Positions 2,953 through 41,372 of a stretch of 41,372 nt of DNA are shown here, in pieces (within the stretch, counting starts at the first letter, position 1; every line of letters starts with the position of its first letter). The translations under genes and the position numbers were made by a program. Source of the DNA: Saccoglossus kowalevskii (lineage: Eukaryota; Hemichordata; Enteropneusta; Harrimaniidae). The notes under the pieces were generated by a model. It did no database searches. It worked only from the letters and a program-made list of their open reading frames with translations, and was not told the origin of the DNA. The DNA lies in assembly GCF_000003605.2 (NCBI RefSeq), contig NW_003135350.1:41368-82739 (forward strand), read 5' to 3'.

Positions 2953-3593
2953 AGTCTTTGTGCGTCTGTGCGTGCGTGCGTCCTTCCGGAGTCATATCTC
3001 AGAATTCCTTCATTCTTTGCATGTGCCTAGTACTTTATGTGGGACATATGCACAATGCAGTGTTTAGCGATCCGATTCAAAATGGCCGACTGGCAGTCAT
3101 CTTGTTTTTTGAAAATGTTGTATTTTGGACATGCTTTGTCAGTTTTCATTCAAACTTGGTACATAGATTATACATGTTAGGATACATGTCCATGACGATT
3201 TATTTCACAATTGGATCAAAGATGGCCGACTGGCAGCCATCTTGTTTTTTGAAAATGTCGTATTTTGGACATGCTTTGTCAGTTTTCATTCAAATTTAGT
3301 ACATAGATCATACATGTTAGGATACATGTCCCCGACCGTTCCTGAGTCTGTCTGTTCGTCCGTGTGTCCGTCCGTGTGTCCGTCCGTGTGTCAGTCTGTG
3401 CAGAGTCATATTTCAGAATCCTGTGGACTGATTCCGTTCATTCTTTGCATGTGCCTAGTATCTTATGTGGGACATATGCACATGCAGTGGTTTAGCGATT
3501 CGATTCAAAATGGTCGACTGGCATTCATCTTGTTTCTTGAAAATGTTGTATTTTGGACATGCTTTGTAAGTTGTCATTCAAACTTGGTACATA
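2953..3593 (+). repeat. Family B tandem-unit repeat, left part
   Basis: This is an array of units of about 140 bp. Each unit carries the imperfect palindrome (A)AGATGGCCGACTGGC-AGCCATCTTG; the cores lie near 3081, 3221 and 3508. The array begins twice with a TCCG/TCTG-rich simple tract (2955-2990 and 3345-3400) followed by 'gtcatatytcagaa' and 'cattctttgcatgtgcc', so two head-to-tail copies of the whole element are present. Open frames across it (2958-3299, 3242-3682) simply translate the repeat and are not host genes. The array is interrupted at 3592 by a DNA transposon and resumes at 4817. A second locus lies at 20255-20935. Confidence 0.9.
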
Positions 3594-3736
3594 CCGTATT
3601 ATCCCGGGCACGCGCCCCTCCCTGGGCAACAAAAGTTACATGTTGGGGACATCCTCGGTTAAACGCCCAGGGTGATTTTTAGCCAAGAACGGGGTCAACA
3701 ATAAAGTTTTATTTGTCAAAAACGAACGCGTTCGAT

Positions 3737-4019
3737 TTATTTAAATAGTGTGTTTGTTACGGTAGTTCTTATTTTGGAGTGTGTGGTGGCCCTGAAAAGG
3801 ACCGCTTTGTTTGTGTTTTTATGTAAAAACTCATTGGAACGTAAGACGAACCATGCAGCACACACGTTCTGCTTTCTCTTCATTCACGATGAATCCAATA
3901 TTGCAGTATTGCAACGATCCATACCTTGGTGAGTGGTTTGAAGCACTTAGCTTTGGTTTCAAAACGTAGTATTTCGCTGACTGTGAATCCATAACGGGAG
4001 CTAGCACTTTTGAGACATC
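3737..4019 (-). pseudogene. Out-of-frame continuation of the HIRAN frame
   Basis: On the minus strand this stretch is open for about 94 codons in the frame one base away from the HIRAN fragment, ending in TAA at 3737-3739. I do not recognise a second domain. It begins exactly where the upstream frame shifts at a short A run, consistent with one ancestral protein of about 165 residues. The histone-like stem-loop at 3784-3803 lies inside this frame, which argues that either the frame or the hairpin is not what it seems. Confidence 0.4.
3784..3803 (-). other. Histone-type mRNA 3' stem-loop
   Basis: Read on the minus strand the sequence is GGTCCTTTTCAGGGCCACCA. It has a 6-bp stem (GGTCCT/AGGGCC with one G-U pair), the TTTC loop and the ACCA tail, preceded by ACAAAGC. 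This matches the replication-dependent histone stem-loop consensus GGYYYTTTTCARRRCCACCA at every position. A purine-rich patch (AAAATAAGAAC) follows about 10 nt downstream, where a histone downstream element would sit. No histone coding sequence is readable next to it. Confidence 0.65.
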
Positions 4020-4228
4020 TTGAGTAAACTTGCTACTTTCTTTCCATCCTTCATCACAGCTATGGCATTACGGTCATGTGGATTATTTTTCTGTCGTTGA
4101 AGAATAAACATTTTGCCGACCTCAAGTCCATTACGATAACCATAATGAGGCATGCCGACGATGGGAACTTGTTGCATCATCGTTATTTTTGTAATTTTGT
4201 CATGTGTGTGGGTGCGTGAATAAATCAT
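4001..4228 (-). pseudogene. HIRAN-domain protein fragment inside the transposon
   Basis: The frame starts at an ATG and gives 75 residues, ending at a TAG. Residues 21-70 carry the HIRAN signature: VPIVGMPHYGY (21-31), then LEVGKMFILQR (35-45), then NNPHDRNAIAV (48-58), then DGKKVASL (61-68). HIRAN domains in HLTF/Rad5 bind free 3'-OH single-stranded DNA ends at stalled forks, and stand-alone bacterial versions occur with DNA-processing enzymes. Here the frame breaks just after the domain, at about 4019-4021. Shifting by one base opens a further frame of about 94 codons to a stop at 3737-3739, which suggests a one-base deletion in an older, longer protein. A donor-like ATG|GTAAGT occurs upstream on the same strand at 4496-4504. 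The domain call is fairly firm from motif order; its function in the element is unknown. Confidence 0.7.
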
Positions 4229-4457
4229 GTTAATGAGGTCGACCAGAGTTTATTTTCAGTCTGTTTTTTTATGTATCGCCATTTGGATATGTTTATGTAT
4301 TCACAATAGTTTGTAAACATTTCACATCAGTAATAAAAGGTTTATTTGTTTCATAACCCTGTCTGCTATTCTTCAGTAATTACGATGCGATGTATCAATA
4401 CGTGCATAAACAAAATTATGCTAATGAGGTCATCACCATCGACTTGAATGCACTGAT

Positions 4458-4482
4458 CACGGTTACTAAAAAAGTAACCGTG
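4458..4482. repeat. Perfect 10-bp palindrome inside the transposon
   Basis: CACGGTTACT and AGTAACCGTG are separated by five A residues. The arms are perfect. It lies between two near-identical short direct repeats (ATGTTAATGAGGTC near 4227 and ATGCTAATGAGGTC near 4418) and the right end of the element, and may be a subterminal transposase-binding or promoter structure. Confidence 0.6.
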
Positions 4483-4816
4483 CATTAATTACAATACTTA
4501 CCATACTTTGTAGCCAATTTCAGTGAGTAATACAACTTCATTCACTGACATAAAACAAGTTTTATTCTTGAAAATCGACCCCGTGTCTTAGTGTTCCCAC
4601 AGTTCTTGACCGAGTGCTCACGTTTATTTAAACCTCGCATAAATCAAGAAATAAGTACGTGTACAAAGTGTACGAAAGCATTCGTTTATTTGACCTTATC
4701 ATACGATCACAAAAACAACTTTTTAAAATCTTTTTTGGGGTGGTCCTCGGGTAAGCGCCCACCCCCATTTTTTCATGATTTTTATGTTCTGGGCGCGTGC
4801 CCGTGGTAATACTGTA

Positions 4817-5175
4817 TATTATACATGTTAGGATACATGTCCATGACGATTTATTTCGCAATTGGATCAAAGATGGTCAACTGGCAGGCATCTTGTTTTG
4901 GTTTTTGTATATGGTATCTTGGACGTGCTCTGTCAGTTTTCATTCAAATTTGGCACATACATGTACTTTATACATGTTAGGATGCATGTCCATGACAATT
5001 TGTTTCAAAATCTGGTCAAGGATGGCCGATTGACAGCCATCTGACTTTTTGGCCTTACTACTATATTTCCACAATTTATGTACCATTTTCATTCGTATTT
5101 GGCACATACATCATACATATCAGTGTGTTTCATAATCAGATCAAAGATGGCCGAATAACGGCTGTTTTTATTTTT
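4817..5175 (+). repeat. Family B tandem-unit repeat, right part
   Basis: The B array continues directly after the transposon. Palindrome cores AGATGGTCAACTGGCAGGCA, GATGGCCGATTGACAGCCAT and AGATGGCCGAATAACGGC lie near 4871, 5020 and 5144, with decreasing similarity towards the right. The open frames at 4797-5044 are repeat translations. Confidence 0.85.
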
Positions 5176-5185
5176 GGCCATATTA

Positions 5186-5289
5186 CTACTACACAGAACA
5201 TGTGTTTTGATGTAAATAAACAATCTGTTGTATACGCCACTTGGAACTGTAGTTTCAAGGATACGCTCGCGACAACCCCTCCGCTTTAA
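5186..5289. mobile_element. Right part of a diverged TTAA MITE (family H)
   Basis: The end 'cgacaacccctccgcTTTAA' and the inner 'tgttgtatacgccacttggaact' align with the right half of the intact element at 14262-14418 ('gacgaccctcacgcTTTAA', 'tgttgttatcgtcgcttgggact'). The left end was not found, so this copy is probably truncated. Confidence 0.5.
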
Positions 5290-14422: not shown

Positions 14423-15506
14423 TGTGATTAATTATTGTAAACCGTTTAATTTTCACTGTAGAATATTGTGGTATTTGTGAAAAAGACACTGACATTCTCA
14501 CTGCTACAAAATCTTAGGGTTGCGTTGTGTAGAATAGTACAACAGATCACCAAGAGATATAAAGTCACTTGGAGTATTTGCATAATGTTGTCAAAGTACA
14601 ATACAATACTGCAATTGGTTCAACTCAAAGTGGAAGATTCCAGAGAATAGTTCAAAAGCAAAAATTTAATGTGAAACATTAATAAATTATTACAGATGAC
14701 AACAATACTGGCAAAATACCAGGATGTGCAAACTTATGGAATCATAAATATGGCCTACCGTGTTAAATATAGAGAAACAAACAGTGTATTTGATGTAATA
14801 TTCACCATTTATTTTCAAGTGGAATTTGTAATTCAGTTCAAAAACATTTATTTTGTAAACGTCCAATTTTGTTTAAAATTGGTTATAATGTATCTAATTG
14901 TGTTAGAGAGTAGTAATTGTAACACAAAAACATTCAACAGTTCAACCAGCTTCAAACAGGTTTACGGTAATCACGGAAATGAAAAAAGATGTCAAACATT
15001 CAGTTTTAGAATATTAAAGGGAAACGACATTGACATTGAATTGAATAGAAATCATGTCAGAACGGCAAGTGTTTAATGTATTCACTGTAGTATGTAAAAC
15101 ATCTTTCCACGCGTCTATCTTGATATTCAAAATGAGATTTTTTTTTTTTTGCAATAAAATCTCCTGCCTCCAGTCATGTTTAAATTAATAATATAGTTAG
15201 TGGTGAAAAAAAACGGGGCCTTTGATTGAAATGTTCTAAAATAAGTGACCTCAGAATGAAGTCCTGATTCTTTTTCATGATGGCTCTTAGTGGTCGTATT
15301 TTATTTTTTTTTTCTATATAAATTTTTTTTTTACAGTCTGTTTATTTTGTTTAAGTTTTTTTTTTCTAATTTCAGTGGAAGTTAGTTATTTAGTTTTATT
15401 ATTCCTGATCAAATATAAAATGAGATGAAAAAGGGAATTTTAAAAGTCATCTTCAAACTCAATGCATAATACTTGTAGCTAAGCTGTGAGTAATAAAATA
15501 CTGGTA
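14423..15506. other. Non-coding DNA; a 126-codon open frame of doubtful status
   Basis: The stretch 14435-14470 begins like family G (TTGTAAACCGTTTAATTTTC) but its right end was not found. The plus-strand frame at 14696-15076 starts at ATG and is the second-longest frame in the window. It is biased to residues from AT-rich codons, contains no motif I recognise and has no splice support, so I treat it as chance. Confidence 0.45.
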
Positions 15507-15706
15507 CTGTGAAATACTTTATTTTAGCTGGAATTAATTTTCGCTGAAAAGAATTTTTGGGTGTTTTGTGTGAATTTTATTGTCACTGATTTTTCACAAG
15601 TTGAATGTAAAATATACAAAAAAAAAGTATAATTGTAGGATTTTATTTTTACTGAATCATTCCTCCAGCGAAAACTAATTCCAAGCGAAAATAAAGTATT
15701 TTACAG
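15507..15706. mobile_element. Family C palindromic MITE, 200 bp
   Basis: TA flanks both ends (15505-15506 and 15707-15708). The left end CTGTGAAATACTTTATTTTA pairs with the right end, whose complement reads CTGTAAAATACTTTATTTTC. 'aattaattttcgctgaaaa' and 'ccagcgaaaactaattcc' form the inner arms. The centre contains 'tgatttttcacaagttgaatgt'. Further copies lie at 21839, 23239, 31818 and 32147. Confidence 0.9.
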
Positions 15707-15708
15707 TA

Positions 15709-20254: not shown

Positions 20255-20935
20255 GTCTTCATCCATCCATCCGTCCGTCTGTCTGTCCGTCCAGTGTCAT
20301 ATTTCAGAACCCTGTGGACCAAATCTGTTCATTCTTTGCATGTGCCCAGTAATTTATATGGGACCTATGCACATGCGGTGGTTTACTGATTCAATCCAAG
20401 ATGGCTGACTGGCAGCTATTTTGGTTTTTGAAAATGTGGTATCTTATGCATGCTTTGTTAGTTTTTGTTCAAATTTGGTACATATGTTGTACATTTTAGA
20501 TTACATGTCCTTGACAATTTGTTGTACAATCGGATTAAAGATGGCTTACTGGCGGCCATCTTGCTTTTTGACCATACTACTATATCTCCAAGGCTTTTGG
20601 ACCATTTTCATTCATATTTGGCACATACATCATAAATATAGGAATACATGTTCATGTCAGTTTTTTCATAGTCAGATCGAAGATGGCCAACTGGCTTCCA
20701 TCTTGTTTATTGGAAAAAGTTTTTGTTCAAATTTGATACAAACATTATATATGTTGAGATGCACATCCATGCTGATTTGTTTCATGTTCAAATCCACAAT
20801 GACCAACTGGCAGCCATCTTGTTTTTTTTCAAAATGTACACGTCCATGACATTTAGTGTCACAATCAGGTCAAAGTTGGTTGACTGCCTGAAATCCTGCT
20901 CTTTAACCATACTACTATATTTCTGTACATGAGCC
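20255..20935 (+). repeat. Family B tandem-unit repeat, second locus
   Basis: It begins with the same CCATCCGTCCGTCTGTC simple tract and 'gtgtcatatttcagaaccct' as the first locus. Palindrome-bearing units follow, with cores near 20400, 20540, 20681, 20799 and 20871 (spacings about 140, 141, 118 and 72). It is more diverged than the first locus, and its open frames at 20421-20932 are repeat translations. Orientation is the same as at 2953-5175. Confidence 0.88.
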
Positions 20936-21838: not shown

Positions 21839-22045
21839 CTGTAGATTACTTTATTTTCGCTTGGAATTTATTTTCGCTATTTTCGCTGAAGGATTATTCC
21901 GTGAAAATAAAATCCAGCGAATATACTTTTTTTCATATATTTCACATTAAACTCATCAAAAATCAATGAAAATAAATTCCATATAAAATGCTCAAAATGC
22001 CTTTTCAGCGAAAATTAATTCCAGCGAAAATTAAGTATTCCACAG
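21839..22045. mobile_element. Family C MITE, inverted orientation
   Basis: TA flanks at 21837-21838 and 22046-22047. The internal asymmetry ('gaaggattattccgtgaaaat' on the left, 'aaactcatcaaaaatcaatg' in the centre) shows this copy is reversed relative to 15507-15706 and 32147-32343. The ends read CTGTAGATTACTTTATTTTC and, on the other strand, CTGTGGAATACTTAATTTTC. Confidence 0.9.
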
Positions 22046-22417: not shown

Positions 22418-22601
22418 TACTGTAAAATCTGTATTAGAAACCGCGGCTTCTATTAAAATGGTACAATGCAACAGGGGGGATGCGGCTTCTAATAGAGCAT
22501 CTACACATATGAGAAATGATGAATTTTTGGTTCTCAATTATTCAAAAAAAATAGGTGCGACTTCTAATAGGAATGCGGCTTCTAATACAGATTTTACGGT
22601 A
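22418..22601. mobile_element. Family D MITE with TA duplication
   Basis: The ends are inverted repeats of about 24 bp: TACTGTAAAATCTGTATTAG on the left, and TACCGTAAAATCTGTATTAG as the complement of the right end, each including the flanking TA. Inside, GCGGCTTCTAATAG-type blocks recur in both orientations. It is followed at once by a GC-rich tRNA-like element. Confidence 0.88.
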
Positions 22602-22879: not shown

Positions 22880-23238
22880 TTTATTAATGACTGCTGTTAA
22901 AATCTGGTAATTTACCGGTAAATACAAATTTATATGACATAATGGTCACTGAACTATGTTGTATGTTCGCACAAAAAAAAAGTCAGACATTCATGGAAAT
23001 GGATATTTTTTGAGCAATTCATCATTGGTTGCTATGGTAATAAGATCTCATCATATCTCACATATTCATGTTTGGTAACATGTGCTGGTGAATTACTGAT
23101 GATTATAATTGATTTTTTTTATGAAATAATGCTGTAACATGCTGTGTAAGGTGATAAAAAGCAAAATTTGAGTTCTACCTGTGTGTGTAAGAATTTAAAA
23201 ACAAATGTGATAAAATGATTTGCCTCTGTTTTTTATTA
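22880..23238. other. Non-coding AT-rich DNA
   Basis: No feature was recognised. Confidence 0.5.
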
Positions 23239-23412
23239 CTGTAGAATACTTTTATTTTAACTTGAATTAATTTTCGTGATTTGTATGGAATTTATTTTCA
23301 CTAATTTTTGGCAAGTTAACTGTAAAATATAGGAAAAAAGGTATATTCGCTGGATTTTGTTTTCACTGAATCATTCCTTCAGCAAAAATAGTGAAAATAA
23401 AGTATTTTACAA
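23239..23412. mobile_element. Family C MITE, shortened copy
   Basis: It has the left end CTGTAGAATACTTTTATTTT, inner 'aattaattttcgtga', the central 'tttttggcaagttaactgtaa' and right 'cagcaaaaatagtgaaaata'. The outermost right bases are decayed (ttttacaac) and an internal arm is missing compared with 32147-32343. Confidence 0.8.
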
Positions 23413-31803: not shown

Positions 31804-31817
31804 TATTCTTGTAGTTA

Positions 31818-31994
31818 CTGTAAAATGCTTTTCTTTAGCTGAAATTAATTTTCCCTGAAAATACATTTTCTGCATTGTATGAAGTTTATTTTCATTGATT
31901 TTTGATGAGTTGAATATAATAGAAAAATATTTATAAGATATTTTCGCTGATTCACCCCTTCAGCGAAAATAGTGAAAATATATTTTAGGCAAAG
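31818..31994. mobile_element. Family C MITE
   Basis: It begins after TA with CTGTAAAATGCTTTTCTTTA, includes 'tttttgatgagttgaatat' and 'cccttcagcgaaaatagtg', and ends in a decayed 'attttaggcaaag' before TA. Confidence 0.8.
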
Positions 31995-32146
31995 TAGATT
32001 ACTGAGAATTTATATTCTGCGATTATGCTTTTCCACAGCTTTTTTGAGAACAAAAGACTGTATTTCCATGATGGTAAACATAAAGTACTTAATTAGCATA
32101 GTCTATTGATATGCAAATATGATATGTACTCATAAAAAATAAAATA

Positions 32147-32343
32147 CTGTGAAATACTTTATTTTAGCGGGAATTAATTTTCGCTGAAAAGGCATTTTGG
32201 GTGTTTTGTATGGAATTATTTTCACTGATTTTTGATGAGTTGAATGTGAAATATAGGGTAAAAGTATATTCGCTAGATTTTATTTTCACGGAATCATCCT
32301 TTCAGCGAAAATAAATTCCAAACGAAAATAAAGTATTCTACAG
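32147..32343. mobile_element. Family C MITE, best-preserved copy
   Basis: TA flanks at 32145-32146 and 32344-32345. The ends CTGTGAAATACTTTATTTTA and (complement) CTGTAGAATACTTTATTTTC are nearly perfect inverted repeats, extending into GGAATTAATTTTCGCTGAAA and TTTCAGCGAAAATAAATTCC. The centre is 'tttttgatgagttgaatgtg'. At 197 bp it encodes nothing. Confidence 0.92.
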
Positions 32344-32448
32344 TACTTATTTTTTTCAACAAACTACACATAAGAGAGTAGATATTTAAGTTTAATGTTT
32401 TGTTTTTAGTTTCAGCAAAAAAAAAAGATCACAGTATAAAAAAAAATG

Positions 32449-41069: not shown

Positions 41070-41372
41070 GTTTGTTGCCTGGATACAGTGGCCATATTGG
41101 AGGGGAACATATACACAATTATAGTTTGTGAGTATGGTTGCCTGGATATGGTTGCCTATGCTGGACAGTATCACATTTCACACATCCATACATCTGGTTG
41201 CCTAGACACAGTGTCCATATTAGAAGGCATTATTACATATCAGACACCAACAAAACACAAAATATCTTCCATCTGGTTGCCTTGACACAGTATTCCTATT
41301 GGAGGGCATTATTTCAGGCCACACAGCAATACAACACAGAATATCCCACATTTTGTTGCCTCAACACAGTAT
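41070..41372 (+). repeat. ~80-bp tandem array running off the window
   Basis: Units start GGTTGCCT(A/T)GACACAGT at 41196 and 41276, with a further start near 41354 and less regular copies at 41073, 41136 and 41150. Each continues with 'ccatattggagggcattat' and 'acaacacaraatatc'. The array is cut by the window end, so its full length is unknown. Confidence 0.88.

Follow-up and report, generated by a model that had tools for sequence, protein, structure and literature searches.

The window (the whole stretch of DNA analysed, 41,372 nucleotides) holds a copy of a transposon family, here named F1, which carries on its minus strand the remains of a gene for a HIRAN-domain protein followed by a histone-type 3′ end (Table 1). 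The sequence-only reading had proposed 24-nt inverted ends and a TA duplication for this copy, and both hold: TA lies at either flank, 21 of 24 bases agree between the ends, and together with flanking bases the pair reaches 27 nt at 89% complementarity. With a pattern built from both ends (up to 3 mismatches), only the places at 3594 and 4791 matched in the window, and shuffles gave 0.

Table 1. Features of the F1 copy and its insertion site (positions in the window)
Feature	Position	Strand	Basis or remark
F1 transposon copy, 1221 bp	3594..4814	.	ends, TA flanks, empty site; no transposase detected
Left terminal inverted repeat, 24 nt, CCGTATTATCCCGGGCACGCGCCC	3594..3617	+	inverted-repeat search
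Right terminal inverted repeat, 24 nt, partner of CCGTATTATCCCGGGCACGCGCCC	4791..4814	-	inverted-repeat search
TA target duplication, left	3592..3593	.	
TA target duplication, right	4815..4816	.	
Sister repeat unit with empty site	3113..3219	+	103/107, gapless
Second sister unit with empty site	3253..3331	+	72/79, gapless
Histone 3′ UTR stem-loop, RF00032	3763..3808	-	29.5 bits, E 5e-6; stem about 3788-3803
Histone-downstream-element-like purine stretch, decayed	3759..3775	-	AAAATAAG in place of AAAAAGAG
HIRAN gene, family ATG to stop (TGA 3831-3833)	3831..4180	-	frames, family alignment; start and shift by counting
HIRAN domain, first part, one frame, profile 3-51 of 96	4034..4177	-	PF08797 match, converted to window coordinates

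For the empty-site test, the flanks of the element were joined with a single TA and aligned to the repeat units of the window. The exact-length empty site that had been suggested in the neighbouring sister unit was recovered (Table 1). The joined flanks also align to a unit at 20432 (84/107, gapless) and to one at 4914 (84/106; 6 gap positions fall at the site). Since they restore the neighbouring unit without a gap, the element was inserted into one unit of a pre-existing repeat array. Units with words like AAAGATGGCCGACTGGCAGCCATCTTG occur at 2999-3566, 4815-5190 and 20280-20880; the stretch at 20.3-20.9 kb is a separate, diverged array.

Other repeats were seen in the window. A palindromic MITE-like piece lies at 22418-22601, with ends TACTGTAAAATCTGTATTAGAAACCGC / TACCGTAAAATCTGTATTAGAAGCCGC; across 56 bases, one of its ends shares 77% identity with the end of the pogo-type element L081 found elsewhere in the genome. 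Units of about 165-200 bp (beginning TTTATTTTCGCTGGAATTAATTTTCGCT) occur at 15503-15708, 21859-22018, 23237-23403, 31810-31979 and 32145-32349; such units are also present in the flank of the pogo element, at positions 57-221 of locus L081, and the longer matches are 71-84% identical. A 79-bp tandem repeat (2.3 copies) occupies 41190-41372 and extends past the window end.

The minus-strand frame had been read as HIRAN from its motif order. The profile search agrees, since the open frame scored 30.4 bits against PF08797 (E 3.5e-7, cut-off 24.7; hmmscan, Pfam). A second frame (VSKVLAPVMDS...) continues the domain and runs to the stop codon. Reading the two through, with an X placed between them, raised the score to 42.9 bits (profile 3-73 of 96, E 4.5e-11), against only 29.7 bits for an alternative continuation. 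The frameshift lies at about 4020-4037, a place worked out by counting. The HIRAN domain is thus split over two frames, and the window copy is a frameshifted pseudogene. The best solved relatives of the read-through are human HLTF HIRAN chains (E 2.4e-5). No RING or SNF2 domain was matched in the 8 frames of the window element scanned, and an NCBIfam search gave no match. The window copy is best explained as a dead, non-autonomous, TA-target DNA transposon of the Tc1/mariner-pogo kind, and the living form of F1 as having coded for a small protein, about 117 residues long, with the HIRAN domain.

F1, its sister family F2 and the HIRAN gene

The 572-Mb assembly (4830 contigs) was searched with the window element as query. 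At least 55 match rows were obtained (40 of 225 candidates scored), and copies whose match starts at base 1 or 3 of the element and runs to base 1219 are 83-91% identical to it. The F1 end pattern with up to 2 mismatches was found at 60 forward and 62 reverse places, 122 altogether, and a reversed-pattern control at 0; the proposed TA-target transposon is a real family whose genome copies share the 24-nt ends. Among the matches listed, CCGTATTACCCCGGGCACGCGCCC is the commonest end form. Both ends were present in 25 of 40 fetched F1 loci, with TA at both sides in 22 of the 25; these two-ended copies measure 1008-1703 bp, and 13 of them fall within 1242-1292 bp. Viral contigs scanned for F1 ends and protein gave no match. 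An end-pattern match in Hyphomicrobium was taken as chance, about 0.5 being expected by our own estimate (20 fixed bases, 257 billion bases).

In some copies the HIRAN gene is interrupted by a nested insert of about 400 bp. At L060 the insert spans positions 435-850 of the element, approximately. There it is accompanied by an 8-bp duplication, CTCCCGTT, and has its own inverted ends, CACAGTCAGCTGGCA; from these features we take it to be a hAT-like (MITE) element. The longer form was also considered as an intron-bearing ancestor and was rejected on account of the duplication and the inverted ends, and because the insert is absent from the F2 copies compared. Insert sequence was found in 10 of 40 F1 loci, and the same right junction in 8 of 40, 7 of them among those 10. 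The shared junction indicates that the HIRAN-interrupted form multiplied, and an intact HIRAN gene was therefore unnecessary in cis.

A search of the genome with PF08797 gave 71 places (all 123 candidates scored), and 30 of these loci were fetched. In the frames listed, one (L010) was judged by eye to resemble the host HLTF gene; the rest align with F1 or with a second family, F2. A 1931-aa frame around one HIRAN match (C2593) proved to be a run of N and no gene. TA-flanked F2 ends of the form CCGTAYTTATCCGGGTAWRAGCCC, some with several mismatches, were detected in 6 of the 18 loci searched for them, at distances of 1169-1666 bp. The ends, the HIRAN gene and its 3′ flank align between F1 and F2; the stretch 5′ of the gene does not.

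Selection on the HIRAN gene was assessed in an alignment of 22 F1 and 18 F2 rows, from which 19 of 40 F1 loci, long or partial, were excluded. The test covers the 360 columns whose codon phase could be set by peptide words, which is less than the whole ORF. Differences between the F1 and F2 majorities were distributed over the three codon positions as 21/114, 16/115 and 64/116 (chi-square p 1e-9). Private changes of single copies were flat (80/70/93, p 0.19; F1 29/30/40, F2 51/40/53), and changes common to at least two copies within a family were flat as well (F1 8/10/7, F2 23/20/25), giving no sign of selection inside F1 or F2. In 108 codons 80 residues agree, with pN 0.15 and pS 0.74. The resulting dN/dS of about 0.05 is rough, because dS is close to saturation and 263 of 500 bootstrap replicates were computable, and the codon-position counts are the safer test. 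The third-position excess between the families together with the flat private changes indicates that individual copies decay neutrally and that the founding lineages of F1 and F2 kept the protein. At the level of sequence these counts show purifying selection on the HIRAN gene between F1 and F2, in a comparison of family majorities that by itself cannot separate transposon evolution from host-gene evolution.

The sequence-only reading had also asked for longer copies joining the HIRAN frame to a transposase, and none came to light. Two transposases of this genome, used as tblastn queries at E up to 0.01, found no relative in the 78 loci L002-L079, and they gave no match in the 3234-bp element L102. 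This F1 end pair, the longest among the matches listed, belongs to a copy that has been rearranged; it contains nested repeats and N, and no transposase was detected in it. When 54 DDE_1 and 71 HIRAN places were compared by coordinates, by eye, one close pair was examined (C3979); there an F2-like copy closes before a separate DDE_1 stretch, so that the pair consists of two adjacent elements. In the DDE_1 element with known ends (TA-CCGTAAAATATCTAATTGAGGCCGC), the ends differ from those of F1 and F2. The ends of the Tc1-like (DDE_3) element L083 were searched for and none were found. F1 and F2 elements were probably moved by a transposase coded elsewhere.

Histone-type 3′ ends behind HIRAN and transposase genes

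The histone-type 3′ end, absent from the earlier reading, is a more surprising feature of the element than the HIRAN cargo. The window hairpin scores below the RF00032 gathering threshold of 34 bits. Other F1 copies reach 36-40 bits (L052 39.8, L042 36.2), 2 of 14 loci being above gathering; on the F2 side, 9 of 18 loci matched at E up to 1, the best at 32.7 bits and 0 above gathering. By BLASTN, the block of about 60 bp 3′ of the ORF is about 87% identical between F1 and F2, against about 68% for the ORF. The family majorities agree at 50/58 positions in the hairpin block, 252/363 in the ORF, 38/93 in the stretch before the ATG and 17/40 behind the block.

Over 35 F1 rows, 194 of 210 stem-pair cells are intact, and over 15 F2 rows 84 of 90; the stem is perfect in 25/35 and 9/15 rows respectively. 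These counts are biased to well-kept hairpins, since the rows were chosen by a hairpin pattern (up to 7 mismatches), which 6 of 41 F1 and 3 of 18 F2 loci failed to match and so fell out of the count. Twelve bases past the hairpin, most rows carry AAAAAGAG, the commonest form in both families. It contains the AAAGAG core, which pairs with U7 in mouse according to the available part of PMC7026596. The stem begins 27 nt behind the stop codon in all 3 F1 copies measured and 30 nt behind it in the F2 copy L011 (counted from the row).

RF00032 was then taken over the genome and gave at least 73 matches, 65 of them above gathering, F1 copies and pogo-type and Tc1-like genes included (75 of 50,532 candidates scored). 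The 41 of these 73 matches that were read comprise 24 F1 and 1 F2 element, 4 pogo-type and 3 Tc1-like transposase genes, 4 host histone genes (H2B, H2A and H4 in L084, H2B in L096) and 5 unclassified loci; 7 further matches were placed within or next to F1 ends from their coordinates alone. Of the matches scored, the highest belongs to the pogo-type transposase gene L081 (42.0 bits), and the 4 host histone hairpins score 36.9-38.3.

The transposases of the hairpin-bearing genes were recognised by their DDE_1 (4e-17, pogo-type) and DDE_3 (1.3e-21, Tc1-like) domains. L080, L081 and L082 share about 99% identity in their overlapping parts and have the ends TA-CCGTAAAATATCTAATTGAGGCCGC; L080 and L081 contain N gaps. 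L104 represents a second pogo-type lineage (protein 73-75% identical to L081; hairpin 32.1 bits) and L103 a third (34% identical; 22.1 bits), both hairpins lying below gathering. A DDE_3-type transposase is coded in L083, L085 and L093, with a paired-box-like N-terminus in L083. DDE_1 occurs at 54 and DDE_3 at 27 places in the genome; few are tied to a scored hairpin, a minority of the places having been read.

The spacing from stop codon to stem is 31 nt in H2B, 29 in H2A, 33 in H4, 31 in pogo and 27 in the Tc1-like genes. A block of 59 nt was compared in selected well-kept copies with a single host H2A as reference, and identity to it was 93% for pogo, 85-88% for three Tc1-like, 90-92% for three F1 and 88% for two F2 copies. 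AAAAAGAG is present in the pogo and Tc1-like blocks also. F2 and pogo have CATATTTC in common where the histones shown carry CATCCTC; this is only a hint of exchange among transposons in place of separate captures. The alignments show a histone-type module, as recognised from its sequence, behind the stop codon of both DDE_1 and DDE_3 transposases.

In the host, RF00066 gave no match for U7 snRNA, the Rfam control being likewise silent, and a U7-like pattern gave 0. The five unclassified loci (L089, L094, L095, L100 and L101) have histone stem-loops with no recognised upstream gene; L094 shares 85% identity with L095 across 428 bp, and the two perhaps belong to another repeat family with a histone-type 3′ end.

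Predicted S-phase expression and competing readings

To our knowledge, how eukaryotic cut-and-paste transposons might time their expression to DNA replication is a largely open question. The best reading of the present data is that several DNA transposons use predicted histone-type mRNA 3′ ends, which would link their expression to S phase. Histone pre-mRNAs with a stem-loop and a downstream element are cleaved between the two, receive no poly(A), have no introns and rise in S phase, as set out in the available part of PMC5636114. Host SLBP, U7 snRNP and CPSF73 would process the transposon mRNAs in the same way, without poly(A), the predicted pairing partner of U7 in the transposon 3′ end being CCAAAAAGAGAACUACCGU. 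By such processing, transposase and HIRAN protein would be made mainly in S phase.

HLTF uses its HIRAN domain to bind single-stranded DNA, with a preference for fork-like structures; the binding site includes Y72 and Y93, and N90 and N91 were mutated in tests (PMC4666394, in the part available). By analogy, the transposon HIRAN protein may recognise 3′ ends or forked structures while DNA is replicated, and production in S phase would fit a fork-binding protein. The protein might then help the transposon in trans, through fork-coupled insertion or repair of the excision site, which is the weakest step of the scheme.

Taken together, we consider it fairly probable that the window holds a dead, non-autonomous copy of a TA-target family whose living members carried a HIRAN gene with a histone-type 3′ end, expressed in S phase and helping in trans. 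A broader proposal is made more tentatively, and as a whole we lean slightly against it: the unrelated pogo-type, Tc1-like and HIRAN-only cut-and-paste families of one animal lineage would share the histone-type 3′ module, transposases and fork-binding HIRAN would be made with replication, and the HIRAN-only elements would be a selected helper class acting in trans on 3′ DNA ends at forks. Against the main reading stand the state of the window copy, broken in its HIRAN frame and downstream element and with its hairpin below gathering, and the spread of F1 elements with an interrupted HIRAN gene. On the same side stand the searches that detected neither a transposase between F1 or F2 ends nor a U7 snRNA in the host, the low share of loci with a hairpin above gathering (2 of 14, and 0 of 18 on the F2 side), and the small number of DDE_1 and DDE_3 places that could be linked to a scored hairpin.

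In a rival reading, the transposons captured a host HIRAN gene and the ends of histone genes as functionless passengers. Many copies are broken, the insert in the HIRAN gene recurs in 10 of 40 F1 loci, and the hairpin blocks of host and transposons resemble each other closely, as capture would predict. A mere passenger would hardly account for the excess of third-position differences between the two families when private changes are flat, for a hairpin block kept at 50 of 58 positions where synonymous sites are near saturation, or for the equal spacing of 27-33 nt from stop to stem in unrelated genes. The ends of F1 and F2 are homologous too, so the whole unit seems to have diverged together, and we regard capture without function as unlikely.

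In eggs and embryos, the stem-loop could serve translation or storage driven by SLBP instead of S-phase timing. Transposons must act in the germ line, which suits this explanation. Also in its favour, SLBP binds the hairpin (PMC5636114, available part). The downstream purine element that would pair with U7 is also kept in the best copies, which speaks for processing, and such translation or storage appears improbable as the main purpose. That F1 and F2 each took up a diverged host HIRAN paralogue, the selection being that of the host genes, is quite unlikely: the majority test leaves room for it and a host gene may stand among the 71 HIRAN places, part of which were read, but ends, orientation and 3′ end are common to both families and only 1 of 30 HIRAN loci, the HLTF-like L010, looks host-like (by eye from the frames listed).

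If the reading of S-phase expression with HIRAN help in trans is true, transposase genes with a histone-type 3′ end would give a direct and testable answer to the question of timing: the supply of transposase would depend on SLBP and U7 and need no poly(A). The HIRAN elements would then be a rare case of an accessory gene for DNA-end binding kept by selection in elements with no detected transposase.

Comparison with known systems

In the titles and abstract openings of one open-access library, no paper was found that treats a class of transposons with HIRAN, nor one on a histone stem-loop on transposons. The earlier remark that no well-described transposon class is built around HIRAN stands to that depth of the literature.

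F1 and F2 resemble pogo/Tigger and Tc1/mariner elements (PMC7325037, PMC9976928) in their TA duplication and short inverted ends, and DDE_1 or DDE_3 transposases occur elsewhere in this genome. Among the pogo/Tc1 relatives, TBE and Tec are examples that carry additional ORFs (same sources, available parts). F1 and F2, in contrast, show a HIRAN gene only, and neither this gene nor a histone-type 3′ signal is described in the available parts of these two papers.

The HIRAN domain of HLTF (PDB 2mzn, 4xzf; PMC4666394, available part) is related to the read-through protein at the E-value given above, and in the alignment F1 keeps the NNP-D stretch that holds N90 and N91 of HLTF. F1 has H where HLTF has Y93, and overall similarity is low. 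Unlike HLTF/Rad5, the F1 protein is small and stand-alone, with RING and SNF2 not found in the frames scanned.

Replication-dependent histone genes share with these elements the stem-loop, an ACCA-type tail, the AAAGAG core and a stem 27-33 nt from the stop codon. They differ in that the coding part is here a transposase or a HIRAN protein, and processing of the transposon mRNAs is predicted.

Finally, F1 is like MITEs and gene-capturing transposons, as these are generally understood, in being short, lacking a detected transposase and presumably having been moved in trans. It is set apart from them by the frame that F1 and F2 carry, which evolved under purifying selection between the subfamilies.
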